64,000 nucleotides of DNA from positions 186,001-250,000 of the forward strand of contig NZ_FWYB01000004.1 of the NCBI RefSeq assembly GCF_900176505.1, written 5' to 3'. The notes under the pieces were generated by a model. It worked only from the letters and a program-made list of their open reading frames with translations, was not told the origin of the DNA and did not search any database. The stretch's first letter is position 1. The number at the start of each line of letters is the position of its first letter. The position numbers and the translations under genes were made by a program. The stretch is from Pedobacter nyackensis. GTDB taxonomy: Bacteria > Bacteroidota > Bacteroidia > Sphingobacteriales > Sphingobacteriaceae. Shown piece by piece: positions 35,382-52,403 of the stretch.

Positions 35382-38300
35382 ATGAACTTATCTGTAATTC
35401 AGGGATTTAAAGTCCTTTTCAGGCGCGTCTGCTGCGTATTTGCTGCGATACTCCTTTTTAATCAGGCTAATGCACAACAATTAGTCGAAGCGCATTACAA
35501 TATGGGACGGTCTGGCGAAATTTCGTATGCTACCTCTCCAGGCTCGCTTAAAGATATGAGCAATAAGGGACATGATTTAAAACGAGATGGAACGCCTGTG
35601 TTTTTTGCCGATGCTCCGGCAGATAAAAAATTAAATGGCGAAGGTGCTATTTTGTTTAAAGATCGTGGGATATATAGCATTGCTGATAATTTTGGCAAAG
35701 CCAATCAGCCCTTCGTATTGGAAGGTTGGTTTCAGACCAACAGTCGTCAAGGTTCAAAAGATGCAGGTCGTAGCAAAGGAATTGTTTTGGCCTATGGGGA
35801 TGATAAAAGCGGATATGTTTTATGGCAAAAGGACGATCAATGGGTTTTGATGATAGATGGGAAAGAAAGTCCTAAGCCTGTTGCAAAGGCCATTCCCGGA
35901 GAGTGGATCCATCTTGCCTTAATTAATGATGGTAAGGGCATTTCAACGCTTGCCAACGGTGTAAAAACTTTGAATGCTTTACCGGTAGCCAAATCGGTAG
36001 CTGCCAATTTCTCGATAGGGGCATTGGGTAAAAGTAATTATTTTAATGGATTGATTTACGAAGTAAGGCTTTCTTCTTTAAACAAGACCAAATTTGATGC
36101 AGTCAAACATTTGTTATTTAATGCCAAACAGGTAGCGCAAAAGCAAAAACAAGCAACAGATGAGCAACGCGCATTATTTGCCGCACTCGAAGCTAATAAA
36201 TCAATTGTTAAGGTAAAGACTTTTCCTGCTTCCGAAAATTCAAATGACTGGATGGTTAGTCCGGTTAAAACACCCGTACAATTATTGCTGCAAAAGGAGC
36301 CAGGTCAAATGTCGGCAAAACTGTTATTAACCAATGGCTTGCTGAGTCGTGAGTTTTTTATTGCCGAAAATTTAGCCTGTGTAGGTTTTAAAAATGAATA
36401 TACTGATGCCCAAATCCTGAGAGCGGTAAAGCCTGAAGCAAGAGTGATGATTGATAGTACCTGGTATAATATTGGCGGATTTAGCGGACAGCCGGAAAAA
36501 TCATACTTACTGGAAAGCTGGTATAGTAATTTAATAGCTGAACCATCGGCATTTCGTTTTGCAGGTATTGAGGTGATGCAACCTACAGCACGCTATCCAT
36601 GGCAGCAAAAGTATAATGCTGCGCACACGGATTGGCCGCCTAAAGGCTTACATGTTTTAATGCATTATAAAGCCCCTCTGAATAAGAATAACTGGAAAAG
36701 TACGGTACAGGTTACCGTTCATTATGAATTGTATGAAGGTATGCCTGTGATTGCAAAATGGATAACTGTCGACAACAATACCAATTCATCATTTGTAGTA
36801 CGTGAAGCAGAATGTGAAGTTTTAGCAGTAAATCAGGATCAGATAAAGCGTATACATGTGGAAAGTGACTTTTCTTTTGCCCTGGCTAATGCTGATCCTG
36901 AAGGATCAGCACTGATGCACTACAATGGAACTCCTCCGGCTTATCAAACGGGAAAGAGTACAACTACATGGAGAACAGACCGTGAATACAATACCTGGGC
37001 TTCTCACAACCAGGCTGAAGATAAATTTCTTGGATTTCCGCATCACAACTTGTTGGTGAGCAGGGTGCCAATGGGACCTTCTGAAACGTTGAAGCCAAAA
37101 GAAAAGTTTACTTCTTTTACCACCTTTGAATTATTGCATGATGATGATGACAGAGAGCGTCAGGCCTTGGCGCACCGTAAATTCTACAGAAAGCTGGCCC
37201 CACAGGTAACGGAGTCCTTAATTGCAGCTGGTATTACCTCGCACGATAAAAACAAGCTGAAGGGCTTTATTGATCAAATGGGCGAATTGGGGTTTGAAAG
37301 ATTGGATATTATGGCCTGGCCTGGTATTTCCCATGATAAACTGGATGCGGATTATGTTGGCTTATGGAAGGATATTTCATCTTATGGAAAAGGAAAAGGA
37401 ATTGTAATGGGAGGTTATGAATTACAAACTGCCTCTAGAGGTAGGGGAGCCCAATATGATTGTATTGATCCAAAAACTAATAAACCAGGTAGTTTATTCG
37501 GTCAAAGTGTTTGTATTGCAAGTGAATGGCAAGACAAATATTTTAACGACATGTGGAAGTTTTATGATCAAACAGGACTGATGACTTACAATATGGATGG
37601 CCCTTATCATGGCGATGTATGTGCTTCAACAACACATCCACATCATAGTAATTTATACGATTCTCAATGGCAGCAGTGGAAACAACAGGTAAAGGTACTG
37701 CATGAACTTCAACGTCGTAATATGTATGTGCCAATTCCGGATTGGTATTTTCTAAATGGCCAATCATCAACAGGTATGGGTTATCGTGAGGCGAGTGCGA
37801 ATTTAACTCCACAACAACAATTGCTATTGGGTCGTCAGTATATCTTTGATGGTACATGGCACAAAACGCCAACAATGGGCTGGTTAACTTTACAGCTGGT
37901 AGGATTTTATACCAATGATGCCAGGGTAGGTTTGGAGCCTTTAGCTGAAAACCTGGACAGGTATGAAGTTGGTCTGTTTCAGCATCTGGCTAGTGGCTGC
38001 CAGTTTACAGTAAGAGGTAACAGGCTTTATGATACTCCTGAAACTAAGGCAATGGTAACCAAATGGGTAAATTGGTTTAAAAAGCATCGTGAAATATTAA
38101 CTTCTGATATTATTCACGTTTCTCGTCCTAACGGCAGAGACCTGGATGCAATGTTACACGTGAATCCTCAAATTGATGAAAAGGGGATGTTTGTGGTATT
38201 TAATCCAACAGACAAAGCCATTACCAAGCAGGTGAAGGTACCACTTTACTATGCTGGATTAAAAGGCAAGGCAACAATTACAGATCAGGAAGGCAAAAGT

Positions 38301-38390
38301 AATGTGTTGAAACTAAATGATAAGCACGAAGCGCTGCTAACCGTAAATATACCAGCCGGAGGATTCGGTTGGTACCTGGTTAAAGAATAA
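35382..38390 (+). CDS. LamG-fused glycosidase-like protein, family unassigned
   Basis: Exported protein of 1002 residues with a signal peptide to about residue 31 (Ala-Asn-Ala-Gln). Residues about 33-245 form a LamG/concanavalin-like domain (PFVLEGWFQTN, GEWIHLALINDGKG, FNGLIYEVRLSSLN). From about 285 onward it is homologous to the whole 724-residue protein at 50229: a beta-sandwich (to about 600), a TIM-barrel-like part and a C-terminal sandwich. Shared motifs include Asp-Gly-Pro-Tyr near 739 followed by GDVCASTTHP, and Pro-Asp-Trp-Tyr-Phe-Leu near 786. Asp739 and Asp787 are candidate catalytic residues. The layout resembles clan GH-D alpha-galactosidases, but I cannot place it in a named GH family. 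It is likely periplasmic. Confidence 0.75.
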   Translation: MNLSVIQGFKVLFRRVCCVFAAILLFNQANAQQLVEAHYNMGRSGEISYATSPGSLKDMSNKGHDLKRDGTPVFFADAPADKKLNGEGAILFKDRGIYSIADNFGKANQPFVLEGWFQTNSRQGSKDAGRSKGIVLAYGDDKSGYVLWQKDDQWVLMIDGKESPKPVAKAIPGEWIHLALINDGKGISTLANGVKTLNALPVAKSVAANFSIGALGKSNYFNGLIYEVRLSSLNKTKFDAVKHLLFNAKQVAQKQKQATDEQRALFAALEANKSIVKVKTFPASENSNDWMVSPVKTPVQLLLQKEPGQMSAKLLLTNGLLSREFFIAENLACVGFKNEYTDAQILRAVKPEARVMIDSTWYNIGGFSGQPEKSYLLESWYSNLIAEPSAFRFAGIEVMQPTARYPWQQKYNAAHTDWPPKGLHVLMHYKAPLNKNNWKSTVQVTVHYELYEGMPVIAKWITVDNNTNSSFVVREAECEVLAVNQDQIKRIHVESDFSFALANADPEGSALMHYNGTPPAYQTGKSTTTWRTDREYNTWASHNQAEDKFLGFPHHNLLVSRVPMGPSETLKPKEKFTSFTTFELLHDDDDRERQALAHRKFYRKLAPQVTESLIAAGITSHDKNKLKGFIDQMGELGFERLDIMAWPGISHDKLDADYVGLWKDISSYGKGKGIVMGGYELQTASRGRGAQYDCIDPKTNKPGSLFGQSVCIASEWQDKYFNDMWKFYDQTGLMTYNMDGPYHGDVCASTTHPHHSNLYDSQWQQWKQQVKVLHELQRRNMYVPIPDWYFLNGQSSTGMGYREASANLTPQQQLLLGRQYIFDGTWHKTPTMGWLTLQLVGFYTNDARVGLEPLAENLDRYEVGLFQHLASGCQFTVRGNRLYDTPETKAMVTKWVNWFKKHREILTSDIIHVSRPNGRDLDAMLHVNPQIDEKGMFVVFNPTDKAITKQVKVPLYYAGLKGKATITDQEGKSNVLKLNDKHEALLTVNIPAGGFGWYLVKE

Positions 38391-38413
38391 TTAATACTCA
38401 AAACAACTACAAC

Positions 38414-38448
38414 AAAAACCCCCAGACTGATATAGAATGGGGGTTTTA
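38414..38448. terminator. Bidirectional terminator between convergent genes
   Basis: Arms AAAACCCCCA (38415-38424) and TGGGGGTTTT (38438-38447) pair perfectly over ten bases around a 13-base loop. A-rich sequence on the left and T-rich sequence on the right give a T-run in both directions. It lies between the stop codons of the converging LamG-glycosidase gene and the GH95 gene, where a shared terminator is expected. Confidence 0.9.
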
Positions 38449-38463
38449 CTTTTTCTGAAATAT

Positions 38464-40887
38464 TTACAAGCTACTGATAGCATAGGTTTTACCCGTCACC
38501 GTATCAAAGCTGATCAAATGATCAGAAATTTTCTTGTAAGGGACTGCCCTTCCGGCGCTGGTTAAAACTGCAGTGCCAATACCTGCGTAATTTAACATAC
38601 AGCTATTTCCTTGAAGAGATTTTAGCTTTGCAGTAAGAAGCTTTCCTTTTTCCCATTGCATGGAAACTTCAAAATTGCCACGTGCTTTTAAGCCGGTAAC
38701 ATTTCCTGTCGACCAGGCTTCCGGAAGCGCAGGTAAAAGTTCTATAACACGGTTCCCGATTTCACCGTCCTGACTTTGAAGGAGCATTTCTGCTACACCC
38801 GCGGTATAACCAAAGTTACCATCGATCTGGAATGGAGGGTGCTCATCAAACAGGTTATAGGCAATACTTTGTTTAAATAGCGCCATGATATGTTCATGTG
38901 CACTATTACCGTCCTTAAGGCGTGCAAAGAAATTAATGGTCCATGCCCTGCTCCAGCCTGTACCAGCACCGCCATTTTTTAACCGCTTGGCCAGTGTTTT
39001 TTTTGCACCTTCAAATAGTTCCGGCGTCTTAGCAGCCGTGATCTGATTGCCCGGATGAAGGGCAAATAAATGTGACACATGTCTGTGCCCGGGTTCTACT
39101 TCCTTATAATCTTCAATCCATTCCTGTATAGAGCCATCTTTTGCGAGCTGTGTTGGTGCCAATTGTTTCATGGTAGCCATTAGGGTATCCCTGAATTTTT
39201 CGTCCTTCTGAAGCACTTTACTTGCCGCCATTGTTCTGATAAATAAATCATTTATGATTTGCATGTCCATGGTCGGCGCATAGGTAAGCAAGGCTCGTTT
39301 TCCGGTAAGCGGATCTATGTAAGAGTTTTCTGGACTGTAGGAAGGTGAGGTAACCAGACGGTTCTTTTTGTCGCGGATAAGGATATCAAGGACAAACTGC
39401 GACGATTCTTTCATCATCGGGTAGGCGATATCTTTTAAGAAAGCTTTGTCGCCGTTAAATTCATAATGTTCAAATATGGGCTGAGTCATCCAGGGACCAC
39501 CCATTGGAAACAAACCATTCACTACGCCATCATGCACCGCTGTATGCCCAAAAGCGTCTGTAAGATGGTGTACAGTCCATCCACGGGCACCGTACATCTG
39601 TTTAGCTGTTACCTTTCCCGGAACTTTGAGCATTTGCATAAAATGGATTAAAGGCCGGGCAGTTTCTGTCATATTGGTTACCTCTGCCGGCCAATAATTC
39701 ATTTGCAGATTGATATTGGTATGAAAATCTGAATTCCAGGGAGCCTTAAGGTCTTTATTCCAAATGCCCTGAAGGTTTGCAGGGAGCACGCCTGGCGCAA
39801 GTGAACTGCCCATCAGCAAGTAACGGCCATACTGAAACAGGAGGGCTTCCAGTCCGGGATCAAAAACATTATTTTTCACCCGCTGTAAGCGCTCGTTGGT
39901 AGGCAAATGACTTTGTGTATCAGGTCCAAGACTGAGCTCAACACGGTCCATTATGCGCTGCTGCGCTGCAATATGTGCAGCTTTAAGTGCAGTGTAAGAT
40001 TTACCGGTTAGCGCCTTCAGTATGTTTTGGCTAATCAGATCTGGATCTTTAGTCAGATCTATATCCATTTTATCCGCATTGTAATTGGTGGCTGCGGTGA
40101 TAAGAATGGTAACCGCCTTTGCATTTTGTATCTTAAGCTTTCCCTGCCCCTCAATTAATTTTCCACCTTCAGTACTTACCTGCGCTATGGTTTCAAACTT
40201 CATTCCTGTACCGTCGATCTGTCCTTTAAGGATCAGTTGGTTTTTAATGCTGTGTACAACGGCATCTTTTTGTCTCGACATACCCAGGCTCAGGTTAATG
40301 GTTTGAGGACCTTTGGTTTCCAGGCGCATAACGATGGTGTTGGCGGGAGCCGAAGCAAACACTTCTCTGGTATAGCTCTGCCCGCCAATATGATACATCA
40401 CGCTATGGATGCCTGTGCTAAGGTTCAGTTCTCTTTTATAATTTGAAGCTTCAGCTGCATCATCAAAATCTAAGGTCAGGTTGCCCAGAGGTTGATAGGA
40501 TTGAACACTGCCTGGGTTTCCGTTAAGTGATTTATTGGCTAGTTTTAAAGCCTCATCAGTTTTCCCTTCAAAAATGAGCTTTCGGATTTCTGGAAGATTC
40601 TGTAAGGCTTCAGGGTTGTTGTTATTCATTTTCTTGCCCTGCCATACACTTTCCTCATTCAGTTGCAATTGTTCCTGCTTTACACCTCCAAAAACCATGG
40701 CGCCAAGCCTCCCGTTTCCTATCGGGAGGGCTTGGCGCCATTCGTCTGCAGCTTGTTTATACCATAACTTCAAATCTGGTTTGGAGCTGGTTTTACTTTG
40801 CTGCGCATTGGAAGGTAAGTTAGCGAAGCCTATTGCTGCAATTATAAATGTAGATACATAACCGAAGCGAATAGAGACAGATTTCAT
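38464..40887 (-). CDS. GH95 alpha-L-fucosidase or alpha-L-galactosidase
   Basis: Exported glycosidase of 807 residues with a signal peptide to about residue 29 (Ser-Asn-Ala-Gln). N-terminal GH95 sandwich: [20 protein letters not shown] at 40-59, then [11 protein letters not shown]. The (alpha/alpha)6 barrel carries the family signatures: the Asn pair N391/N393 in [10 protein letters not shown], Glu520 in a Ser-Pro-Glu motif, and Asp689 in IDGNFG. These match the polar residues I recall as catalytic in bifidobacterial AfcA. GH95 enzymes invert the linkage and remove alpha-1,2-fucose, or alpha-L-galactose in some members. The start codon overlaps the stop of the MFS gene by four bases, so it ends the cytochrome/ThuA/transporter operon. 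Confidence 0.92.
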
Positions 40888-42176
40888 ATGGTTACTGCTT
40901 CATCACTATAACTCAGCCTTTTGTTAGCTTTTCTTGAACGCATGTATACAACTAACCCTGCAAATGCCACAATTAAAACTAAAGGAATAACAAGGGTTGC
41001 CTGTAAAATCTCCGGACCTGCCAGGTTTTTGGCATTGGCTAAAGTCTGAGCAGCAGGAGTGCCTTCGGCTGCTTTTAAATAGGTGTCTAAGGATCCGTCA
41101 GATGGTAAATGTTTAACGATCAGATCGTCATAAAAACTGCCCATAAATATGGTGTAAACAGAAACGGCAAACATCCCTGCACCACCCATCAGGTTTATGC
41201 CTAATGCCCCTGACTGAGGGATATTTTCGGAGACAAAGCCAATCATTGTAGGCCAGAAATAGCAAACGCCTATACCGAAGATGATTGCAGCAAAGAAAAT
41301 GGAATTTCCCGTAAAGGTGCTGAGCATGTAAAGGCCTGTTGCCGCAAATATGGCAGATAGGAGTAATACACCCTGAGGAGCCAGACGTTTTACCACAGGC
41401 TCAGCAAATCCACGTCCGATGACCATGATACCTGTAGTAAGGGTGAGCAGTAAAATTGCATTATCCGTTACGTTTTTAAGCAGCAGTCCAATCCATTGAC
41501 CGGTAAATAACTCGGTAATGGCAGTGCCAAACATGCATATAAACATAAAAATAAATAACGGAGAGCACACAGCTTTATACATATCCGCACTGGAATACCC
41601 TGATGATACCCTTTCAGTTACCGGGAAATCCAATTTGGAAAACAGGTAGCCATAAATTAGAGTAGGAATGATCATCATCGCCACTTGTACCTTCCAGCCG
41701 AGGCCAAGATGAACAAATAGGGTAACCAGCAATGTACCAATTACAATACCGCCCGGGAACCATAAATGAAAATGATTTAAACGGGTTGTTTTGTTGTTTG
41801 GGTACAAGGTTGCAACCAAGGGATTACATGCTGCTTCTACTGTTCCATTGGCAATACCAATAAGCAGGGTAGAGAAAAACAGCGTCCAGTAACCTTGAGC
41901 AAAAATGGTGAGTACAATTCCGGCCAGGTGAAAAACGAAGGCCATAACCAGCAGACGTTTCATCCCAATGAGATCGACAACGAAGCCGCCCACAACAATA
42001 GCCAGGGGAAATCCCCAGAATGCGGTGGCAGTGATGGTGCCCAGTTGGGTAGCACTTAGTTGAAAATCGATCCCGAGCTGATTCATCATGCCCGCCCGGA
42101 TCCCGAAGGAAAGGGAGGTCACCAGTAAAGCCAGGCAGCTTGCCCAGAATAGTTTGTTGGTTTGAATGTTAAGCAT
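40884..42176 (-). CDS. MFS sugar transporter, FucP-like
   Basis: Inner-membrane protein of 430 residues with about 12 hydrophobic segments. N-terminal half: [33 protein letters not shown] (the loop 2-3 motif), and [10 protein letters not shown] at about 133-142, which resembles the fucose/galactose/glucose proton symporter (FHS) branch of the major facilitator superfamily. A long periplasmic loop at about 345-385 is rich in polar residues. The gene sits between the dehydrogenase-like lipoprotein and the GH95 gene and overlaps the latter by four bases. It probably imports a monosaccharide released by the periplasmic glycosidases, with fucose or galactose as guesses from context. Confidence 0.88.
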
Positions 42177-42209
42177 GTGTTTAGGTTTATATTTGGTTAT
42201 AAAATCGGA

Positions 42210-44432
42210 TTATTTTTTTGCGGTTTCCAATTCTGTTTTTGTCCAGGATTTATCCCTTCCGTTGGTTTCCTGTCTTACTTTCTTAACATCGGCTGGTTTT
42301 ACTACCGAAGCTTTATTACCAATGTCATTCCGGATAAAACTGATTACTGAAGCAATATAGTCATCATCATTTGCGCCAAGTGCCGGCATTACATCGGGGT
42401 AGGTTTTGCCATTTATAGGTCCCGATAATCCGTGAAGAAGAATTTTAATTAGTTTTTCCGGATCACCAGTAACGTTGGATGAATTGGCAAGGGCAGGGGC
42501 AACCATGTTCTTTCCTCCAATTGCTACACCCTTTCCGTCAGCACCATGGCAGGTTGCACACAACTGATTAAAGATCAGTGATCCCTTGTTAATCAGTTTT
42601 TGATCCGCTTCTTTTAAAAGCAGTGCATTCCTTTTCGACAAAGCTCTGGCATCCATAATGCTCTGGTATTTCTTTTGCGATGTTGTAATGACTTCATTGT
42701 CGGTGTTATTTGCCAACAATTCTTTAGTCAATATACCTGCTTTTTCTGAATTACTGAAACGTAAAGTTAAAGCAAGTTGAAAACGTACATCAGCACTTGG
42801 ATCATTGATCAATGGTTTCATGGCAGCAATCAATTGATCATCTCCATTTAGTACCCTTTCTTCACTGGCCCAAATGGTTGTTTTTCTGATTTCAGCGTCT
42901 TTATCCTTCAGCATGCTAAGGATCGTTTCGTTGTCTAATGCTTTTAAGCCATTTAATGTCCATAAAGCATGGATGCGGCCAAGCTGCGATGTGCTGCTGT
43001 TTAATACCATTGCTTTCAGTTCAGGAACAACTGACTTGTCGCCACGAATGACGATCAGCTTTTGTGCATTTTCGCGCCACCAACCATTGGCATGACTTAA
43101 ATACTGTACCAATTGGTTAGAGGACATATCCAGCATTTTTGGTGCTGTTTTGTCTGGTTTTATTCCATCGTATACCAGTCTGTAAATTCTTCCGCGTCCG
43201 ATGTTTTGATCCAGTTTTCTTTCTAAAATTTTCTTGCGCAGGAAGGATCCTTTTCTTGTCCATTCCCCTTCCTGGATGATACCCCGGTACATATCTAAAA
43301 TATATAAACAGCCATCGGGCCCCGTTGCCGTATTTACAGGTCTGAAGTTCATGTCAGTTGAAGCGAGAAATTCTTCCTTCTCAAATATATTTTTTAAAGT
43401 GATTTTCCCTTCGGTATTGGTCACCTTAGCCCTTCTGATCAGGCGTCCTACAGGTTCACAGATAAACAGGTCGCTCAATACATCTTCAGGTAATGAATTA
43501 CCTCTGAATACGGATTGTCCTGTAGATGCAGTAAAATGATTTAAAGTGCTGTCTGCTCTAAGTCTTCCTAATCCTCCTTGTACATCTGGAGTAGAGATAA
43601 TTGGCCATACAGCTTGAAAGTCTTCATTAAATTGATCTTTAAGATCAAGCCTTCCATACATTGGGTTTTGCTGAAAGGTGAGTGCGGGTACTTCACCACC
43701 TGCTGATGAATAGAATAAACGACCGTAATTGTCATTGGTTAACCCCCATTGTCCACCTGGACCTTCCGGAAGGTTTTCCGATTTGATCATTCCATCTTCG
43801 TAAGAATAGCGTTTGTTTTCTACGGTGACATACATTTTATTATCGAGATTCCAGATCAGTCCGCTTTTCTGGTGTTCCAGGTTACTGGTGTTAATGGCAT
43901 CGTTTTTATATACGAGTTTCTTTTCATCAGCTATACCATCACCGTTTGTGTCGCGATAGCTGTGGATATGATTGGAATTGGTTTCATTCACCAACAGACG
44001 GTCGTCCAGCGTCTGGATCATCCGGGGTAATACCAGGTTTTTTACAAATACAACAGATTTATCCATTTTTCCGTCACCATTCGTGTCTTCCAGTCTTTTG
44101 ATAGAGCAAATAGGTTTCATTTCACCGGTACCGTCTACATCCTGCATATAGGTATTCATTTCAGCAACGTACAATCTGCCATTGCCATCCCATACCATGG
44201 CTACGGGTTCATGGATCATAGGCTCGGCAGCAATCAATTCCAAACGATAGCCTTTTGGTACATGTATCGTTTTAAGACTTTCCTGTGGGGAGAGATAGGC
44301 TGGTGAAGGTGCTGTATTTACGATGATTTTGCCTTCAGCATCTCGTTTTATCACTTGTTGAGACACCTTGCAGGTGTAGGTAAGTAAGGACAGTCCAACT
44401 AAACCGGCTAGCCATTGTTTATTTCTTTTCAT
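42210..44432 (-). CDS. Beta-propeller dehydrogenase-like lipoprotein with C-terminal cytochrome c
   Basis: A 740-residue protein. The N-terminus has a lipobox-like Thr-Tyr-Thr-Cys at about residue 21. Residues about 50-430 form a beta-propeller resembling the putative membrane-bound dehydrogenase domain common in Planctomycetes and Bacteroidota (PKGYRLELIAAEPMIHEP, VAMVWDGNGRLYVAEM, Asp-Thr-Asn-Gly-Asp-Gly repeats that may bind calcium, PDGCLYILDMYRGI). Residues about 455-600 look like HEAT repeats (WWRENAQKLIVIRGD, HALWTLNGLKAL). A class I cytochrome c domain follows, with haem motif Cys-Ala-Thr-Cys-His at 625-629 and a probable Met ligand at about 682 (DVMPAL). It may oxidise a sugar or sugar derivative and pass electrons to the small cytochrome encoded at 45197. 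The substrate is unknown. Confidence 0.85.
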   Translation of the reverse strand: MKRNKQWLAGLVGLSLLTYTCKVSQQVIKRDAEGKIIVNTAPSPAYLSPQESLKTIHVPKGYRLELIAAEPMIHEPVAMVWDGNGRLYVAEMNTYMQDVDGTGEMKPICSIKRLEDTNGDGKMDKSVVFVKNLVLPRMIQTLDDRLLVNETNSNHIHSYRDTNGDGIADEKKLVYKNDAINTSNLEHQKSGLIWNLDNKMYVTVENKRYSYEDGMIKSENLPEGPGGQWGLTNDNYGRLFYSSAGGEVPALTFQQNPMYGRLDLKDQFNEDFQAVWPIISTPDVQGGLGRLRADSTLNHFTASTGQSVFRGNSLPEDVLSDLFICEPVGRLIRRAKVTNTEGKITLKNIFEKEEFLASTDMNFRPVNTATGPDGCLYILDMYRGIIQEGEWTRKGSFLRKKILERKLDQNIGRGRIYRLVYDGIKPDKTAPKMLDMSSNQLVQYLSHANGWWRENAQKLIVIRGDKSVVPELKAMVLNSSTSQLGRIHALWTLNGLKALDNETILSMLKDKDAEIRKTTIWASEERVLNGDDQLIAAMKPLINDPSADVRFQLALTLRFSNSEKAGILTKELLANNTDNEVITTSQKKYQSIMDARALSKRNALLLKEADQKLINKGSLIFNQLCATCHGADGKGVAIGGKNMVAPALANSSNVTGDPEKLIKILLHGLSGPINGKTYPDVMPALGANDDDYIASVISFIRNDIGNKASVVKPADVKKVRQETNGRDKSWTKTELETAKK

Positions 44433-44445
44433 TTTTTTGTTCGGT

Positions 44446-45189
44446 TTATTTTTTCAGACCCATTGCATATTTAATTCCACCCAGTAAGTGGTTCAGGAAC
44501 TGCGGTTCAGAAAAGGATTCTTCTGTATGACCAAGTGCGGTATAAAAGGACCTGCCTCCGTCATATGGGCGATACCATGCCATGGGGTGATTTCCCATTT
44601 TTCCTGATCCGGGATTATAGCTGTTTTCATCTATAGTCATCAGGATATTTAAGCCTTTAGCCACCCATTTGAAATTGTACCACTCATCTTTTCTTTTGTA
44701 TTTTTCTGGAAGGTGTTTGGTTGAAATGTGCTTCCTGTCGATTACATCCAATACCGCTACCTGCTGGCTGGGGTGGCTGAGAAAATAGGCACCTACAAGA
44801 TCACCATACCAGGGCCAGTCGTATTCGCAATCGGTTGCACTGTGAACTCCTACAAAGCCACCTCCGGTTCTGATATACTTTTCGAATGCATTTTGTTGGT
44901 CATTATTCAATACATCACCAGTGGTGTTTAAAAAGATTACTGCGTTATATTGTTTAAGATTTTCTTCAGTAAATTTTGCCGAATTTATAGTGCTGTCAAC
45001 ATCAAACTTATTTTCTTTGCCCAATTTCTGAATGGCAGCGATTCCCTGTTTGATAGAGTTGTGGTGAAAGCCTGCAGTTTTACAGAAAACCAGTACTTTT
45101 TTTTGCTTTGCATGTACCGTAAGGTTGATGGACACAAAGGCGACAATAATGAGCATGGTGAAGCTCATTTTTATATTCAATTTTTCCAT
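44446..45189 (-). CDS. ThuA-like domain protein (exported)
   Basis: Protein of 247 residues with a signal peptide (about 1-28, ending Val-His-Ala). The rest is one ThuA-like, glutamine-amidotransferase-fold domain: KVLVFCKTAGFHHNSIKQGI at about 31-50, YNAVIFLNTTGDVL, FEKYIRTGGGFVGVHSATD, and GNHPMAWYRPYDGGRSFYTA with LGHTEESF. ThuA proteins are linked to trehalose or sucrose utilisation and to 3-keto-sugar metabolism in some bacteria. In Bacteroidota they are often next to haem-containing dehydrogenase-like proteins, as here. It begins 7 bases after the cytochrome gene ends. A second in-frame ATG at 45168 would still leave a signal peptide. Confidence 0.9.
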   Translation of the reverse strand: MEKLNIKMSFTMLIIVAFVSINLTVHAKQKKVLVFCKTAGFHHNSIKQGIAAIQKLGKENKFDVDSTINSAKFTEENLKQYNAVIFLNTTGDVLNNDQQNAFEKYIRTGGGFVGVHSATDCEYDWPWYGDLVGAYFLSHPSQQVAVLDVIDRKHISTKHLPEKYKRKDEWYNFKWVAKGLNILMTIDENSYNPGSGKMGNHPMAWYRPYDGGRSFYTALGHTEESFSEPQFLNHLLGGIKYAMGLKK

Positions 45190-45196
45190 AAAGATT

Positions 45197-45595
45197 TTAA
45201 CGAATTGAAAGGATATACTTTGTCATTTTCCTTGCGTCGTTTAGAGATAAGGATGAATGTGGCGACATAGGTACCTGTCCCCATACCCCAGCACCACCTT
45301 TGATAATTTTGTTGGCTAATTGGTCATAATTCTCTGCAATAGCTGGATACTTTACTGCAACGTTCTTGTACGCAGGGCCTACTAGTTTGGTGTCTATTTT
45401 ATGACAAGCCAAACAGTCGGATTTTGCGATCAATGCTTTTCCCTCAGCAATTTCTGCGGGAGTGGCAGTTGTTTTGGCTGATGAAGTGGAGATTTTTACT
45501 CCTGTACTTGTTTTCTTTTTAGTGGTTTGGCTAAAACCGAGATTAGGGGCTAAGGCAAAAAATGCAATAACTGGAATAATTAGAATTCGTTTCAT
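45197..45595 (-). CDS. Small c-type cytochrome
   Basis: Exported 132-residue class I cytochrome c. Signal peptide to about residue 22 (Gly-Phe-Ser-Gln), then a Lys/Thr/Ser-rich linker (24-46) and the haem domain: Cys-Leu-Ala-Cys-His at 61-65, LVGPAYKNVAVKY at 71-83, and Met110 in QVPMSPH as the likely sixth ligand. It is the first gene of the five-gene minus-strand operon and would carry electrons for the cytochrome-bearing dehydrogenase-like protein two genes later. The leader just before the ATG is A/C-rich, with no Shine-Dalgarno sequence. Confidence 0.92.
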   Translation of the reverse strand: MKRILIIPVIAFFALAPNLGFSQTTKKKTSTGVKISTSSAKTTATPAEIAEGKALIAKSDCLACHKIDTKLVGPAYKNVAVKYPAIAENYDQLANKIIKGGAGVWGQVPMSPHSSLSLNDARKMTKYILSIR

Positions 45596-45628
45596 TGTGT
45601 TTAATGTGTTTGTGTGTTGTTTGTTCTA

Positions 45629-45746
45629 TCAAATAACACATTTTTTGCCCTAAAATACGAATGCTAATTTGACTAATATTGACGTTATTTTTGCTCTTTT
45701 TAGAAAGATTGAGCAAAAATAACATAGGTTTTGGTCAAAATAACAT
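45629..45746. promoter_or_regulatory. Divergent operator/promoter region with repeated half-sites
   Basis: Between the cytochrome operon and the GH110 operon there is a perfect 13-bp inverted repeat, GTTATTTTTGCTC (45684-45696) and GAGCAAAAATAAC (45711-45723), with a 14-base spacer. A further half-site, GTCAAAATAACAT (45734-45746), repeats GCAAAAATAACAT (45713-45725) with an exact offset of 21 bases, two helical turns. ATGCTAATTTGAC (45661-45673) is the exact reverse complement of GTCAAATTAGCAT found at 59777. A weaker copy, TCAAATAACA, is at 45629. Both arms of the inverted repeat contain TATTTTTG, which also fits the Bacteroidota -7 box TAnnTTTG on each strand. Confidence 0.6.
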
Positions 45747-45803
45747 CTATAAAGACGCTGTCAATTGCGGTTATTTGAATATTGTCATTCAACACACACA
45801 CAA

Positions 45804-46049
45804 ATGATAAAGTATTTTTTTTTATGCCTTTTGCTACTTTCAATAGTGGCTCAGGGTAGACAGCTCCATCCAGACGACCGAGCCGCTGGCTCGCGTTTGG
45901 CAGGCATTTCCCATAGCCTGATCGCGTCAGGAATGATGGATAGTCTATGTCCATTGAAGGCCCTCTATATAAAAAAGAAAATAAAATATTTCCCATCAAA
46001 CGGTAGTTTTGCTTTTGATGCGGAAATATTGTATAGTTTTAATAAATAG
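45804..46049 (+). pseudogene. Orphan signal peptide fused to a GC-rich REP-like patch (possible gene remnant)
   Basis: From an ATG preceded by a short CA repeat the frame reads a convincing signal peptide (MIKYFFLCLLLLSIVAQG). It then enters sequence with no protein-like pattern and stops at 46049. Bases 45861-45931 are about 63 percent G+C (45 of 71), well above the neighbours. They hold two hairpins: CGAGCC-GCT-GGCTCG (45879-45893) and CCTGA-TCGCG-TCAGG (45917-45931). This looks like a gene start whose body was lost or replaced by a repetitive extragenic palindrome-type element. It could also be a chance frame. A TAGGTTTG box at 46056-46063, 24 bases before the GH110 start, fits the -7 consensus. 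Confidence 0.35.
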
Positions 46050-46087
46050 TGTCGATAGGTTTGAAGATAGCATATTAGGAAATAATT

Positions 46088-47917
46088 ATGACGAACATAC
46101 GATTTGATATATTCTTTTGGAGAGGCTTAGGTATTGTCCTTTTATTCCAGTTTGCAGCAGTTAAATATAGCTTGGCACAAGAGCGTATTCGCTTAACGGA
46201 ATATGGTGTTCGTGCCAACAGTTACGAAAATGCAGCCCCTGGCATCAGAAAGGCGATTGAGGCTTGTAAGGCTAAACCAGGATCTACTTTATTGCTGCCT
46301 ACTGGAAGAATTGATATCTGGCCAGAGTATAGTGCCAAAAAAGAATTGTATATTTCTAACTGTACAGAAAATGATACCCTTTCAAAAGTTAAAAATATCG
46401 CTTTTCTTTTAGAAAATGTGAACGATTTGGTTCTTGAGGGAAATAATACTTTGATCGTACTTCATGGTAAGATGGTTTCTTTTGCCATTCTAAATAGTAA
46501 AAATATAAAGGTTAAGAACATCAGCTTTGATTACGAAAGACCAACAATTTCAGAACTGATAGTAAAATCAGTAGCTCCGGATGCTGTGGAAACAATTATT
46601 CATCCGGACAGCAAATACTCCATTGATCATGGTCGTATCAGTTTATACGGAGAAGGTTGGAAAAGCAATTCCTATCATACGATTCTGTTTGATCCTTCAA
46701 ATAGTGCGATGCGTTATAGTACTTTTACACCCTTTCTGGAAAGTAAGGCAATTGAAAAGAGTCCTTTTAATGTGAGGTTTGAAGGTAACTTTAGTAAAAC
46801 ATCTTTCAAGCCGGGCGATGTATTTACCATCAGAGACCCATATCGTGACAATTGTGGAGGATTTATTTCAAGGAGTAAAGATATAGTACTGGAAAACGTA
46901 AAAATGCATTTTATGCACGGATTGGGGGTTGTATCTCAATTTTCTGAAAATATCTCATTATTAAAAGTTAGTGTTGCACCAAGGGAGAACTCAGGACGTA
47001 TCATTTCCTCGTTTGCAGATTGTTTTCACTTTTCCGGATGTAAAGGACTGGTTAAGGTGGATAGTTGTTTTACTTCTGGTTCTCATGACGACCCGGTGAA
47101 TGTACATGGTACGCACTTGAAAATCACTTCCATAAAGGAGAATAAGATGATTGTACGTTTTATGCATCATCAAACTTATGGATTTGAAGCTTTTTTTGGA
47201 GGGGATAACATTGCATTTATCAATCCAAAAACCTTGATGGCTATGGGAAAAGCGAAATTAAAATCGGCAAAACTGATCAACAAACGTGAAATGGAAATAG
47301 AGGTGGAAGAAACGCTGCCACCATTTGTTTCTGACGGACTTTGTATCGAAAACGTAACCTGGACTCCAGAGGTAATCATCAGGAACAGTCGATTTGAACG
47401 AACAAATACACGAGGCTTGCTGATTACCACGGGACGTAAAGTACTGATTGAAAATAACGTTTTTTACCGTACAGGCATGTATCCTATTTTGATTGCTGAT
47501 GATGCTTCCAGCTGGTTCGAATCTGGTGCTGTTAGTGATGTGCTGATCCGAAATAATACTTTTCAGGAGTGCGGACTTAACTCTGGTAGTGGTGCTATAA
47601 ATATAGCTCCGGAAAATCATGAATTGGTGATAGGTAATATGGTACATCGTAATATCCGCATTGTAGATAATTCATTTATCTTGTATAGGGATGGACTGCT
47701 AAATGCCAGAAGTGTTGATCATTTAACTTTTAGTGGCAATAAAATTAGTTGGACAAATCTGCTGCAAAAGAAAAGTAATCTGAGTATTAATTTGACTGCC
47801 TGTAAAAATGTGGTCATCAGGAAGAATAGTTTTGAGGCTGGGGAACCTCCCGTGGTGAAGGCCAGCAAAATGACAAATAAAGATCTGAAAACTGATTTGA
47901 AGGTAGAAGTAAAATAG
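46088..47917 (+). CDS. GH110 alpha-1,3-galactosidase
   Basis: Exported protein of 609 residues with a signal peptide to about residue 30 (Ser-Leu-Ala-Gln), built as a right-handed parallel beta-helix (many short strands such as NIKVKNISFDY, DVLIRNNTFQECG, NVVIRKNSFEAG). The diagnostic block is ADCFHFSGCKG followed by SHDDPVNVHGTH. It gives Asp311, Asp334 and Asp335, whose spacing equals the catalytic Asp set I recall for characterised GH110 enzymes (321, 344, 345). The length matches Bacteroides GH110 proteins. GH110 enzymes invert the linkage and remove terminal alpha-1,3-galactose, as in the blood-group-B antigen, linear alpha-Gal or carrageenan-type chains. It opens the plus-strand glycosidase operon. 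Confidence 0.9.
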   Translation: MTNIRFDIFFWRGLGIVLLFQFAAVKYSLAQERIRLTEYGVRANSYENAAPGIRKAIEACKAKPGSTLLLPTGRIDIWPEYSAKKELYISNCTENDTLSKVKNIAFLLENVNDLVLEGNNTLIVLHGKMVSFAILNSKNIKVKNISFDYERPTISELIVKSVAPDAVETIIHPDSKYSIDHGRISLYGEGWKSNSYHTILFDPSNSAMRYSTFTPFLESKAIEKSPFNVRFEGNFSKTSFKPGDVFTIRDPYRDNCGGFISRSKDIVLENVKMHFMHGLGVVSQFSENISLLKVSVAPRENSGRIISSFADCFHFSGCKGLVKVDSCFTSGSHDDPVNVHGTHLKITSIKENKMIVRFMHHQTYGFEAFFGGDNIAFINPKTLMAMGKAKLKSAKLINKREMEIEVEETLPPFVSDGLCIENVTWTPEVIIRNSRFERTNTRGLLITTGRKVLIENNVFYRTGMYPILIADDASSWFESGAVSDVLIRNNTFQECGLNSGSGAINIAPENHELVIGNMVHRNIRIVDNSFILYRDGLLNARSVDHLTFSGNKISWTNLLQKKSNLSINLTACKNVVIRKNSFEAGEPPVVKASKMTNKDLKTDLKVEVK

Positions 47918-47933
47918 ATTTAGCAACAAAACA

Positions 47934-50159
47934 ATGAACAATTTTAAACACTTATTTATCTTTTTGTTATTGATTACCGTAGTTACCGTAAAAGGTAATC
48001 ATATAGGTAATCCTGGAAATGGTGATAAATTATGGTATCTAAAGCCCGCTGATAAATGGGATGCTGAAGCCTTGCCTATCGGAAATGGACGCTTGGGAGC
48101 GATGTTGTTTGCTGGAATCAAAACAGAGCGTATTCAGTTTAATGAACAAAGCTTATGGTCGGGTGACAACAACTGGGATGGGGGGTATCAAACCGGCGAT
48201 CATGGTTTTGGATCATACAGAAATTTTGGAGAGTTTGCCATTAATTTTGATCGGGCTGATGAAGCAAAGGGATACCGTAGGGAATTGAATATCCGCACTG
48301 GTGTTCATACTACTACTTTTGTAATAAATGGCATTACTTTTATCCGTGAAGCTTTTGCCAGTTATCCTGATCAGGTAATGGTTTTCAGATATACAGCAAG
48401 TAAAAAGGGAGCCTTTTCAGGCAAAGTTTCTATGAAGTCTGCACAAGGCTCTTTAAGCATCGCGAATGCAGAGGGATTAAGCTTCGATGCGGAGATGCCT
48501 AATCAATTGAAATATGCAGCAAAACTAAGATTGGTAAAAGAAGGGGGATCAACTTATGTGGAGGGGAATACGCTTGGATTTAAAAACTGTAATTCCATAA
48601 CCTTTTATCTTGATGCACGAACCAATTATAAGCCTGATTATAAGTCGGGATGGAGGGGTGATGACCCTATGCCGCGGATAGATAAGGAGGTGGCTGCTGC
48701 TCAAAAGCTCAGCTATGCTAAACTAAAAAGCCGTCACATTCAGGACATCGCCAGGCTGACTACGGCTGCTACTATTGATGTAGGTAAAACGGCACAGGCG
48801 CAGCTTGACCTCCCAATAGATGTAAGGATTAAAAATTATGCTGGTGGTACTAAAGACCCGGATCTTGAAGAATTGCTTTTTCAATACGGTCGTTATTTGC
48901 TGGTAGGCTCATCAAGGCCAGGTGGATTGCCGGCTAATTTGCAAGGTTTATGGAACGATAGCAACACCCCAGCATGGGCAAGCGATTACCATAATAATAT
49001 CAATATTCAAATGAATTACTGGGCTGCGGAATCGACTAACTTATCCGAATGTCATGAGCCGTTGATTGATTTTATTGTTGCTGCACAGGAGCCTTGCCGG
49101 ATAGCTACACGTAAAGAATTTGGCCAAAGTACACGCGGCTGGACTGCAAGAACCAGTCAGAATATTTTTGGAGGAAATGGTTGGGAATGGAATATCCCTG
49201 CTAGTGCGTGGTACATGCAACATGTGTTTGAACATTGGGATTTTACGAGGGATAAGGTGTATTTAAAAAATACTGCCTATCCAATCTTAAAAGAAATTTG
49301 TCAGTTTTGGGAAGATCGTTTAAAGGTGTCGGAGGATGGAACGCTGATGGTTCCTAATGGTTGGTCGCCTGAACATGGTCCGAAGGAGGATGGCGTTATG
49401 CACGACCAGCAGCTGGTTTGGGATTTATTTCAAAATTACCTTTTGGCGGCAAAGGAACTGGGCGTTGATACAGAATATCAAGCCAAAATAGCTTCGATGC
49501 AGAAAAAGCTTGCACCAAATAAAATAGGTAAATGGGGACAGCTGCAGGAGTGGCAGACAGACCGTGATGATCCTGATGATCAACATCGCCATACCTCACA
49601 TCTTTTTGCCGTTTATCCTGGACGTCAAATTAGCATGAAGAATACACCAGACTTGGCAAATGCAGCCATCATTTCTTTAAGAAGCAGAAGTGGTAACTAT
49701 GGTAAAAACATCAATACGCCTTTCACAGTTGAATCTACTGTGGGAGACAGCCGACGTTCATGGACCTGGCCCTGGAGATGCGCGCTATGGGCAAGGTTTG
49801 GTGAAGGAGAAAAGGCTGGTATGATGATCAAAGGATTGCTTACCTATAATATTCTGCCTAATTTATTTACTACTCACCCGCCTTTTCAAATGGACGGGAA
49901 TTTTGGTATGACTGGAGCTATGGCAGAAATGCTGTTGCAAAGCCATGCTGAAGAAATCCATTTATTGCCTGCAATTCCTGCTGAATGGGCTCAGGAAGGT
50001 TCATTTAATGGACTTAAAGCAAGGGGAGGATTTACTGTCAACTGTAAGTGGCAGAAAGGGAAAGTGACCAGCTATCAAATCTATTCTAAAAAAACTGAAA
50101 AAGTAAAACTCCATATTAATGGTCAGGTAAAAGAGGTTATTTCCACAGTTGTAAAATAA
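47934..50159 (+). CDS. GH95 alpha-L-fucosidase or alpha-L-galactosidase, second copy
   Basis: Exported GH95 enzyme of 741 residues, 16 bases behind GH110. Signal peptide to about residue 20. The N-terminal domain begins KLWYLKPADKWDAEALPIGNG and is shorter than in the copy at 38464 (no long helical insert after the first domain). Family residues are kept: Asn355/Asn357 in NNINIQMNYWAAE, Glu480 in a Ser-Pro-Glu-His-Gly motif, Asp654 in MDGNFGMTG. The sequence differs strongly from the other GH95, for example SPEHG here versus SPENSY there. The two are therefore likely to have different specificities and not to be recent duplicates. Coupling with GH110 suggests stepwise removal of galactose and fucose. 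Confidence 0.92.
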   Translation: MNNFKHLFIFLLLITVVTVKGNHIGNPGNGDKLWYLKPADKWDAEALPIGNGRLGAMLFAGIKTERIQFNEQSLWSGDNNWDGGYQTGDHGFGSYRNFGEFAINFDRADEAKGYRRELNIRTGVHTTTFVINGITFIREAFASYPDQVMVFRYTASKKGAFSGKVSMKSAQGSLSIANAEGLSFDAEMPNQLKYAAKLRLVKEGGSTYVEGNTLGFKNCNSITFYLDARTNYKPDYKSGWRGDDPMPRIDKEVAAAQKLSYAKLKSRHIQDIARLTTAATIDVGKTAQAQLDLPIDVRIKNYAGGTKDPDLEELLFQYGRYLLVGSSRPGGLPANLQGLWNDSNTPAWASDYHNNINIQMNYWAAESTNLSECHEPLIDFIVAAQEPCRIATRKEFGQSTRGWTARTSQNIFGGNGWEWNIPASAWYMQHVFEHWDFTRDKVYLKNTAYPILKEICQFWEDRLKVSEDGTLMVPNGWSPEHGPKEDGVMHDQQLVWDLFQNYLLAAKELGVDTEYQAKIASMQKKLAPNKIGKWGQLQEWQTDRDDPDDQHRHTSHLFAVYPGRQISMKNTPDLANAAIISLRSRSGNYGKNINTPFTVESTVGDSRRSWTWPWRCALWARFGEGEKAGMMIKGLLTYNILPNLFTTHPPFQMDGNFGMTGAMAEMLLQSHAEEIHLLPAIPAEWAQEGSFNGLKARGGFTVNCKWQKGKVTSYQIYSKKTEKVKLHINGQVKEVISTVVK

Positions 50160-50228
50160 TGCTCAAGAGCTACTGTAGGAATTCGGGAGTTTATAAAAAA
50201 AAAACACACCAAATAGAAAAATAAGGAA

Positions 50229-52403
50229 ATGAGATTTAGAACTCAACGAACGTTATTAATTACTGCCCTGATAATAGCCGGGGCAAGTCAGACCTTTGCC
50301 CAGTCGACTTTAAAGGATTGGTTAGTCAACCCTGTTAAAGAGAAAGCACAGGTGATAAAGAGTGCTGATGGAAAGGATATCACCTTACAGAATGGATTGC
50401 TTAAAAGAGTATTTAGAATTTCACCAAATTTGGCCTGTGTTGATTATACCAACCTAAGTACGGGGCGACAGCTTTTGCGCTCAGTGAGGGAAGAAGCAAG
50501 GTTAGTTATTGATGGGAAAACCTATAATATTGGAGGACTTTATGGTCAGAAAGAGAAGGCTTATTTACAGCCCGAATGGCTGGATGGATTTACAGCTGGA
50601 GCCAATGACTTTAAGTATGTGTCCTATGATGTTAAACCCATTAAGCCTCATTTGAAATGGGACGGTAGTAGGTATTGGTCATTTCAATCTAAACCAGCTA
50701 GCGGCAAAACAGTTTCTTTTTTATATAGATCTGATTTGGCAGAGCTTTCGGGCCTTGAAGTACATGTAAACTACGAATTGTATGATGGCATGCCACTAAT
50801 TGTGAAGTCTGTAGCCTTGACGAATGGTGGGAATAAAACCTTTAAAATTGATCAGGTAGTAAACGAGGTCTTGGGCCTGGTTGAAGAAGAGAGTTCAGTA
50901 GAGGGAAGCTTTGAAATCATGAGAAAACCTAGTGGAATATACTTTGAAACCAATTATGCATTCAATAACTCCATGAATTATGCGAATAGCGACCAGACTA
51001 CACACTGGAAGGCGGATTCGACTTATACCTCGCAGGTGCATTACAGGCACCAAACTCCGGTACTGTTGGAAATTTATCCTAAAGATGCAAAAGGAATTGA
51101 ATTGAGGGCAGGAGAAACATTGAATTCTGTACGGACCCATGAATTACTGATGAATAAAGATGATAGGGAAAGTCGTGGATTAGCCATTAGAAAGATGTAC
51201 CGTACAGTAGCTCCATGGGTAACTGCCAATCCAATATTTATGCACCTGGTGGCCAGAAATCCTGAGCAGGTTCGAACGGCTATAGATCAATGTGCTGCTA
51301 CAGGTTATGAAGCGCTGATCGTCAGTTTTGGGAGTAATTTGAATATGGAAGACACTTCGCCGGAGAACATTAGCAAATGGAAGCAGCTTGCTGATTATGC
51401 ACATAGTAAAAATATCCTGATTGGTGGATACTCTTTATTTAGTTCGAGAAGTATAAGTCCAAAGGATGATGTGATTAGTGCTAAAACAGGTAAGCCCGGA
51501 GGAGCCTTTTTTGGCAATGCACCTTGTTTTGGTAGTGAATGGGGACTTCAGTACAGGGATAAAATCAAGAACTTTTATACAAGGACAGGTTTTGATATCT
51601 GGGAAAATGATGGCCCGTATCCTGGGGATGTTTGTGCGTCGACTACACATCCGGGGCATAAGGGATTAGAGGATTCGCAATGGAAACAAATGGAGATCCA
51701 GAAAGAATTGTATACCTGGCTGAATGAAAAGGGAGTTTATATCAATGCCCCGGATTGGTATTTCTTAGATGGTACCAATAAAATTGCTTTAGGCTACAGA
51801 GAAGTGAACTTCTCCTTGCCCCGTGCACAGCAAAAGATTTTAAACCGTCAGAATATTTACGATGCAACCTGGGAGAAGACGCCATCTATGGGATGGGGCT
51901 TTGTGCCATTAACTCAATACCAGGGTGGTGGTAGTGCGGCTACTTTAGAGCCTTTATCTGAACATTTAGACGATTATGAGCAGTTGATGATGCAGTATTA
52001 TGGGGCTGGGGTACAGGCCTGTTATCGTGGACCAAGGTTGTACGATACAGACAAGACGAAGCAAACAGTTATAAATGTGATCAACTGGTACAAAAAGTAC
52101 AGGAATATACTGAATTCTGACCTGATCCATTTGCGCAGGGCGGATGGTCGTGATTGGGATGGAATATTGCATGTTAACCCTGAGCTGAAAGAGAAAGGTT
52201 TGGTGATGTTGTACAATCCTACAAAAGAAAAAATGGTGAGAACGATCAAATTGCCTTTGTATTATACCGGATTGACAGATCTGGCAAGGATCAGTGAAAA
52301 AGGAGGAACTGTTAAAACCTATAAATTAAATCGCGATTATACCGTAGACCTCAGTTTTACACTTAATGCCGGAGGTTATACCTGGTTTTTGATAGGGGGT
52401 TAA
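50229..52403 (+). CDS. Glycosidase-like protein, family unassigned (paralogue of the one at 35382)
   Basis: Exported 724-residue protein with a signal peptide to about residue 24 (Thr-Phe-Ala-Gln). It matches the C-terminal 720 residues of the protein at 35382 but lacks the LamG domain. N-terminal beta-sandwich about 25-310 (GLLKRVFRISPNLACVDY, VHVNYELYDGMPLIVKS), TIM-barrel-like part about 330-620, C-terminal sandwich to the end. Shared candidate active-site motifs are ENDGPYPGDVCASTTHPGH with Asp461 and APDWYFLDG with Asp509. The arrangement, a sandwich then a barrel with an Asp after a hydrophobic strand, is like clan GH-D, but the family is not one I recognise. The next gene starts four bases after its stop. 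Confidence 0.75.
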   Translation: MRFRTQRTLLITALIIAGASQTFAQSTLKDWLVNPVKEKAQVIKSADGKDITLQNGLLKRVFRISPNLACVDYTNLSTGRQLLRSVREEARLVIDGKTYNIGGLYGQKEKAYLQPEWLDGFTAGANDFKYVSYDVKPIKPHLKWDGSRYWSFQSKPASGKTVSFLYRSDLAELSGLEVHVNYELYDGMPLIVKSVALTNGGNKTFKIDQVVNEVLGLVEEESSVEGSFEIMRKPSGIYFETNYAFNNSMNYANSDQTTHWKADSTYTSQVHYRHQTPVLLEIYPKDAKGIELRAGETLNSVRTHELLMNKDDRESRGLAIRKMYRTVAPWVTANPIFMHLVARNPEQVRTAIDQCAATGYEALIVSFGSNLNMEDTSPENISKWKQLADYAHSKNILIGGYSLFSSRSISPKDDVISAKTGKPGGAFFGNAPCFGSEWGLQYRDKIKNFYTRTGFDIWENDGPYPGDVCASTTHPGHKGLEDSQWKQMEIQKELYTWLNEKGVYINAPDWYFLDGTNKIALGYREVNFSLPRAQQKILNRQNIYDATWEKTPSMGWGFVPLTQYQGGGSAATLEPLSEHLDDYEQLMMQYYGAGVQACYRGPRLYDTDKTKQTVINVINWYKKYRNILNSDLIHLRRADGRDWDGILHVNPELKEKGLVMLYNPTKEKMVRTIKLPLYYTGLTDLARISEKGGTVKTYKLNRDYTVDLSFTLNAGGYTWFLIGG

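Follow-up and report, generated by a model that had tools for sequence, protein, structure and literature searches.

Two related genes that encode glycosidase-like proteins are the subject of this study. Both lie on a 64,000-nucleotide stretch of the Pedobacter nyackensis genome (RefSeq assembly GCF_900176505.1, contig NZ_FWYB01000004.1, positions 186,001 to 250,000), which is referred to in its entirety as the window; the source genome comprises 6.1 Mb across 33 contigs. The two open reading frames (Table 1) encode products of 724 and 1002 amino acids (aa), which BLASTP aligns over 724 columns at 36% identity (465 bits, E 3e-155), the catalytic part common to both (~700 residues) being 36-38% identical. 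The first-pass annotation had described these proteins as paralogues sharing three motifs, and this description was borne out: DGPY is located at residues 461-464 of the 724-aa protein and 739-742 of the 1002-aa protein, GDVCASTTHP at 466-475 and 744-753, and PDWYFL at 508-513 and 786-791. The LamG fusion is likewise real and is confined to the larger protein (Laminin_G_3, E 4.7e-7, 30.5 bits against a Pfam cut-off of 27.6). Inspection by eye revealed a signal peptide in both proteins and a lipobox in neither, and both would be exported, probably to the periplasm. A third copy of the family, 68% identical to the 724-aa protein, is found on another contig of the same genome.

No catalytic family was found above the Pfam cut-off for the two window proteins or for 13 diverse family members, and NCBIfam returned nothing relevant for either window protein, in line with the earlier failure to match them to a named glycoside hydrolase (GH) family. 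Neither PF02065 (Melibiase, the GH36 catalytic domain) nor PF16499 (Melibiase_2, GH27) was matched by the two proteins at E <= 10 or by the 13 members at E <= 0.01, while single-sequence searches of the Protein Data Bank (PDB) with both proteins gave best E values of 1.4 and 2, which are not significant. A search of the open-licence literature in PubMed Central (PMC) found no paper describing this family, which is weak evidence of absence, and the accessible portions of PMC9007349 and PMC1249566 contain nothing on it.

Relatives of the 724-aa protein occur in 11 of 198 evenly drawn Bacteroidota genomes at E <= 1e-5. A search with the 1002-aa protein at E <= 1e-20 detected family members in 105 of the 399 genomes covered from the bacterial family to which it belongs and in 13 of the 395 covered from the class (the source genome is included in all three counts). 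Across species-representative genomes, relatives are encoded at no fewer than 557 stretches (tblastn, E <= 1e-3), the best 80 of which were used further. Among the matches listed, the closest relatives with a name come from Pedobacter (82-84% identity to the 724-aa protein), and copies of 50-52% identity are carried by two gut Bacteroidales plasmid records among the 72,556 searched. The family is real and widespread in Bacteroidota, and it is nameless in Pfam and NCBIfam, the libraries compared. The plasmid copies, of 936-938 aa, derive from Phocaeicola massiliensis and Parabacteroides distasonis and lie on large circular records (L110 and L111); that of P. distasonis is annotated only by its NPCBM domain and has integrase, phage-tail and VgrG genes within ~12 kb.

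The AlphaFold2 model of the 724-aa protein, computed from a 79-sequence alignment (predicted local distance difference test, pLDDT, 88.2; predicted template modelling score, pTM, 0.89), consists of an N-terminal β-sandwich (residues ~41-307), a (β/α)8 barrel (~337-628) and a C-terminal sandwich (631-723). Its top Foldseek match is 2yfn, a GH36 α-galactosidase domain (E 7.5e-25), and rows 1-26 of that search are all α-galactosidases or the Flavonifractor galactosaminidase. VIA-align superimposes the model on 6phv (GH36) with a Z score of 25.9 and a root-mean-square deviation (rmsd) of 4.5 over 572 residues, as against Z values of about 21 over about 350 residues for GH27 and about 20 over only 331-365 residues for α-amylase/α-glucosidase entries. 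The model of the 1002-aa protein (mce95c210eacb) is weaker (pLDDT 67.9): its 34-sequence alignment held no other row chosen to cover the LamG region, and the LamG part has a pLDDT below 50 over most of residues 18-231. The top Foldseek match of residues 297-1002 is the GH36 structure 2xn0 (E 1.5e-20), with GH97 (8wg0, E 1.3e-14) and β-arabinopyranosidase (5xfm, E 5.3e-14) entries below GH36, and VIA-align fits this model to 6phw (GH36) with Z 24.0 and rmsd 4.2 over 560 residues. Among the matches listed (50 VIA-align rows per model), only α-galactosidase-like and α-amylase/α-glucosidase structures appear, and other families may stand outside those rows.

The GH36 matches of both models cover all three domains at 10-14% identity, and the succession of sandwich, triosephosphate isomerase (TIM) barrel and sandwich that characterises GH36 is present in both predictions. 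The layout proposed in the first-pass annotation thus holds for the 724-aa protein, while for the larger protein it holds for residues ~297-1002 only, the LamG part being poorly modelled. Neither a family-level hidden Markov model match in Pfam or NCBIfam nor a fold lacking the TIM barrel was encountered; with GH36 as the best match, GH27 as the next, and both models closest to GH36 over their full length, the suggested relation to clan GH-D is backed at the level of predicted fold. A match of fold is not a match of function, yet the predicted match reaches across all three domains.

At the sequence level, the GH36 N-terminal domain model PF16875 is matched by 10 of the 13 diverse members at E <= 0.01 (best 1.3e-6); in the two window proteins it gives the only hint of a catalytic family in Pfam or NCBIfam, scoring 19.8 and 19.5 bits, below its cut-off of 27. 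Built from the 13 members, a profile matches the Lactobacillus acidophilus GH36 structure 2xn0 at positions 141-396 of the profile (E 4.3e-8), a stretch that takes in the latter half of the N-terminal domain and the first part of the barrel. The hhalign comparison covered GH27, GH36 and four control sets; it related the family to GH27 with a probability of 92% (E 6e-7) over 50 columns around strand 3, while the controls (GH29, GH92, sulfatase and SusD) reached at most 4%. Strand 4 of the family, GFDIWEND, resembles the GH27 sequence GIDYLKYD without a gap. The N-domain match to GH36 and the strand-3 match to GH27 therefore place the family in the neighbourhood of GH27 and GH36, inside neither.

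Residue conservation was counted over 123 members, i.e. seven LamG members and 116 others. Asp461, Asp509 and Glu525 (numbering of the 724-aa protein; their equivalents are given in Table 1) are identical in 123/123, and so are Glu361, Asp482, Asp545 and Glu574. In the models, the three-domain fold is GH36-like, and each of barrel strands 4, 5 and 6 has an invariant carboxylate near its end. Asp461/Asp739, put forward earlier as catalytic, retains that role as a good nucleophile candidate, being invariant and placed at the end of strand 4 in the models; this position and the shared fold are the features expected, by prediction, of a clan GH-D member. The other proposed catalytic residue, Asp509/Asp787, is not supported in that role, as it sits after strand 5 and Glu525/Glu803, after strand 6, fits better.

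Asp461 precedes Asp509 by 48 residues and Glu525 by 64. The nucleophile and the acid/base are separated by 68-69 residues in 17 of 19 Bacteroidota GH36 sequences (those in which both motifs were found) and, according to the accessible parts of the respective reports, by 62 in AgaSK (Asp478/Asp540; PMC7688924) and by 65 in a Pseudoalteromonas GH36 enzyme (D451/D516; PMC6213131). According to the same portion of the latter report, the nucleophile and the substrate-binding Cys that follows it are 48 residues apart in L. acidophilus GH36 (D482 and C530) and 43 apart in the Pseudoalteromonas enzyme (D451 and C494). Since the spacings of 48 and 64 match those of GH36, Asp509 fits a substrate contact and Glu525 an acid/base. 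The Cys of GH36 lies on strand 5, and invariant Glu525/Glu803 is, on the models, the more likely acid/base. The proteins could also be non-catalytic or non-glycosidase members of the clan, either binding proteins or pseudoenzymes, as the apparent loss of the canonical GH27/GH36 substrate-recognition motifs might suggest; however, across deep branches 123/123 members retain the acidic residues close to where strands 4, 5 and 6 end. Such invariance would be unusual in a dead enzyme, and we consider this reading very improbable indeed.

Enzymes of GH27 and GH36 hold galactose at O4 and O6 through a pair of Asp residues that follows strand 2. All 19 of the Bacteroidota GH36 sequences contain DDG[WF]F, and all contain K-[WY]-D-x-N at strand 4. 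In the family, DDG[WF]F was not found after strand 2, where Ser366-Phe367 stand near the place of the pair in a weak alignment, and the strand-4 motif was not found either, most members having Glu-Asn-Asp there. The low-confidence hhalign alignments set Ser366-Phe367 opposite the GH27 pair, and Ser366 and a gap opposite the GH36 pair; of the 123 members, 112 retain Ser366, 116 Phe367, 114 Gly368 and 115 Ser369. Judged from these sequences, the Asp-Asp pair appears to be missing from the family. Because of this, and because the place of the Lys is mostly taken by Glu, a plain α-D-galactoside is a doubtful substrate, and the earlier proposal of α-galactosides is weakened to the extent that weak alignments and residue counts allow. 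The sugar in subsite -1 would probably not be an ordinary terminal α-D-galactoside. These observations also bear on whether the proteins are simply very divergent α-galactosidases, α-GalNAcases or β-L-arabinopyranosidases, an offshoot of GH36 or GH27 with the usual class of substrate. GH36 structures do come first among their best matches and GH27 structures second, the A-type blood galactosaminidase 9awt/9ayu and the β-L-arabinopyranosidase 4nx0 being among them, and the window also codes for GH110, two GH95, GH20 and two remote GH36-like proteins. Nevertheless, the want of any PF02065 or PF16499 match and the Ser-Phe in place of Asp-Asp, albeit in weak alignments, render this explanation unlikely.

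We therefore favour, at a probability of roughly two in three (0.68), the reading in which both proteins are periplasmic retaining exo-α-glycosidases, unassigned to a family in Pfam and NCBIfam, and situated in or next to clan GH-D. In such an enzyme, Asp461 (Asp739) would attack the anomeric carbon, Glu525 (Glu803) would serve as acid/base, and Asp509 (Asp787) would contact the sugar like the strand-5 residue of GH27 and GH36. Several points weigh against it. No activity datum was found for any family member. The hhalign comparison with the 19 Bacteroidota GH36 sequences gives a probability of only 1-2%, so that the link to GH36 rests on the predicted fold and mostly on the N-terminal domain; the 79-row profile reaches 2xn0 with only E 1.3e-5 (positions 133-234), and the GH27 sequence match is limited to its 50 columns. 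Furthermore, the full hhalign alignment, which is of low confidence, sets D467-V-C469 rather than D461 over the GH27 nucleophile, making Asp467 (122/123 members) a second candidate for this role. Where GH27 and GH36 have a Lys before the nucleophile, 115 of 123 members have Glu, and the GH27 Asp that acts as the acid stands four residues past the strand-6 Arg and not directly after it. Finally, the apparent absence of the Asp-Asp pair is also read from weak alignments.

The two window proteins represent distinct subfamilies. In a midpoint-rooted tree of 44 rows, one branch, supported at 100/100 and with lengths of 2.34 and 1.09 on the two sides of the root, sets the five LamG members sampled apart from the rest; it is the deepest branch. 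If only positions that are fixed in the seven LamG members and uniform to 95% or more among the 116 others are counted, there are 38 fixed differences, 30 of them within residues 333-605; they include H339G on strand 1 and, beside strand 2, I364D, F367A, G368W and S369P. The LamG protein is matched over its full length in six genomes of the same bacterial family, four at 76-85% identity and two at 56-57%, one of the latter pair with an in-frame TAG within the match. The alignments of these matches run through the LamG module, and a second family member is present in 6/6 of these genomes. It had been suggested that the copies are one enzyme in a soluble and a polymer-targeted version, and this is unlikely because of the long, deep branch and the 38 fixed differences that separate them. 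Since the fixed differences adjoin strands 1 and 2, the copies probably take different substrates; as far as the sequences indicate, they are probably old enzymes acting on different bonds, which perhaps belong to one glycan.

The first-pass annotation also placed the two copies on either side of the operons. In fact, the 1002-aa gene closes a + strand run (17487-38390) headed by SusC/SusD genes and starts 197 bp behind its upstream neighbour, whereas the 724-aa gene is internal to a GH110-GH95-...-GH97 run. To control for neighbourhood, loci within one bacterial family were compared: 34 of the family (excluding the window loci and the LamG-type loci), six LamG-type, 20 GH36 and 20 GH27. Orthologues of the 763-aa protein (Table 1) at 70-75% identity lie near the LamG gene in five of the six LamG-type loci, with relatives in 4/34 other family loci and 0/40 control loci, and a GH110 orthologue is found in two of the six, as in the window. 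The 763-aa protein has no match in Pfam, NCBIfam or the PDB and is possibly another unassigned glycosidase.

As clues to the substrate, neighbouring genes provide weak hints. Around the best 80 of the at least 557 relatives, 81 operon-type neighbours include 13 GH29 and five GH95 genes, and with two GH95 genes in the window itself they could suggest an α-L-fucosidase or L-galactosidase. This signal, strong in the 80 closest loci, proved not to be specific: GH29 or GH95 genes are near 8/34 family and 1/6 LamG-type loci, against 6/20 GH36 and 0/20 GH27 loci. Moreover, pockets of the GH27/GH36 type act on the α-D-galacto or β-L-arabino configuration, and a fucosidase is in our estimation quite improbable. 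GH139, considered on account of the fucose-rich neighbourhoods, was ruled out because the family models have a TIM barrel, and the idea of an L-fucose pathway, prompted by short-chain dehydrogenase/reductase (SDR) and fumarylacetoacetate (FAA) hydrolase neighbours, was set aside as such genes are scattered. GH20-like genes (detected with a model built from one window protein) lie within two genes of 7/34 family and 1/6 LamG-type loci, against 0/40 control loci, a small count that hints at a glycan containing N-acetylhexosamine (HexNAc). It seems to us an even bet that the retaining α-glycosidases favoured above form a new clan GH-D family of two deep subfamilies, with an Asp nucleophile and a Glu acid/base, and act on an α-linked sugar other than ordinary D-galactose, perhaps acidic or N-acetylated, in a fucosylated glycan. 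A new CAZy family is possible.

Table 1. Features discussed in the text, in window coordinates.
Feature	Position	Strand	Evidence or remark
1002-aa LamG-bearing family member (subfamily B)	35382..38390	+	ORF (open reading frame); 36-38% identity to 724-aa copy
LamG/Laminin_G_3 module, residues 107-232 of 1002-aa protein	35700..36077	+	Pfam
Three-domain GH-D-like part, residues 289-1002 of 1002-aa protein	36246..38387	+	BLASTP, model, fold match
Asp739 (1002-aa, = Asp461), end of strand 4	37596..37598	+	Nucleophile candidate
Asp787 (1002-aa, = Asp509), strand 5	37740..37742	+	Likely substrate contact
Glu803 (1002-aa, = Glu525)	37788..37790	+	Acid/base candidate
GH110-type β-helix protein, same run as 724-aa gene	46088..47917	+	Pfam GLAA-B barrels I and II and β helix
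GH95, directly upstream of 724-aa gene	47934..50159	+	Pfam, E 1.4e-143
724-aa member without accessory module (subfamily A)	50229..52403	+	ORF; AlphaFold2 model; GH36 fold match
Asp461 (724-aa), end of strand 4 (457-461)	51609..51611	+	Nucleophile candidate
Asp509 (724-aa), after strand 5 (504-506)	51753..51755	+	Likely substrate contact
Glu525 (724-aa) in GYRE, just past short strand 6 (521-522)	51801..51803	+	Acid/base candidate
763-aa protein without family match	59867..62158	+	Conserved partner of LamG subfamily

Other genes of the window were also recorded. An 846-aa protein (52408-54948, +) yields nothing in Pfam, and two α-galactosidase structures (6lcj, 9awt) and a β-L-arabinopyranosidase model match it only weakly; an orthologue of 82.6% identity lies near the LamG gene in another locus (L208). 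The Melibiase match of a 783-aa protein (54999-57350, +) is barely over the cut-off (27.6 against 27 bits), and close relatives (72-79%) are found in three other loci (L024, L082 and L247). A phosphodiesterase-type protein with LamG and DUF4983 (31387-33081, +) is encoded upstream in the run of the LamG glycosidase gene. On the opposite strand, a PVC-type heme-binding CxxCH protein (TIGR02604; 42210-45189, -) adjoins a ThuA-like protein, and in several other genomes planctomycete-type cytochrome genes (PSCyt1, PSD1) adjoin a family gene.

An established activity would fill an annotation gap in glycan-degrading loci, the catalytic part being nameless in Pfam (13 members) and NCBIfam (two) and the single annotated gut copy being named for its NPCBM domain. 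Activity data would also reveal whether loss of the galactose clamp and use of a Glu as acid/base are possible on the GH27/GH36 scaffold.

Comparison with known families sets the proteins apart to differing degrees. GH139 is an inverting family with an (α/α)6 toroid, according to the accessible part of PMC12282258, in contrast to the TIM barrel predicted here. GH97 shows a weak likeness in one of the 13 members (Glyco_hydro_97, E 0.0096), and neither window protein has a GH97 match in Pfam at E <= 10. GH27 (α-galactosidases and β-L-arabinopyranosidases) provides, through strand 3, the only clear barrel-level match of the two clan families profiled and shares the strand-4 pattern GxDxxxxD; the Asp-Asp pair and the strand-4 Lys are not common to the family, and GH27, unlike the family, has no GH36-type N-terminal sandwich. 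The closest resemblance in predicted fold, over ~570 residues, is to GH36 (2yfn, 2xn0, 4fnq, 6phv), which has the same three-domain layout, likewise carries its nucleophile where strand 4 ends, and shows a similar acid/base spacing and sequence similarity in the N-terminal domain. It differs by its low identity (10-14%), its Melibiase match and its DDG[WF]F and K-[WY]-D-x-N motifs, and by an Asp as acid/base where the family has a proposed Glu, and some members of the family carry LamG or NPCBM modules.

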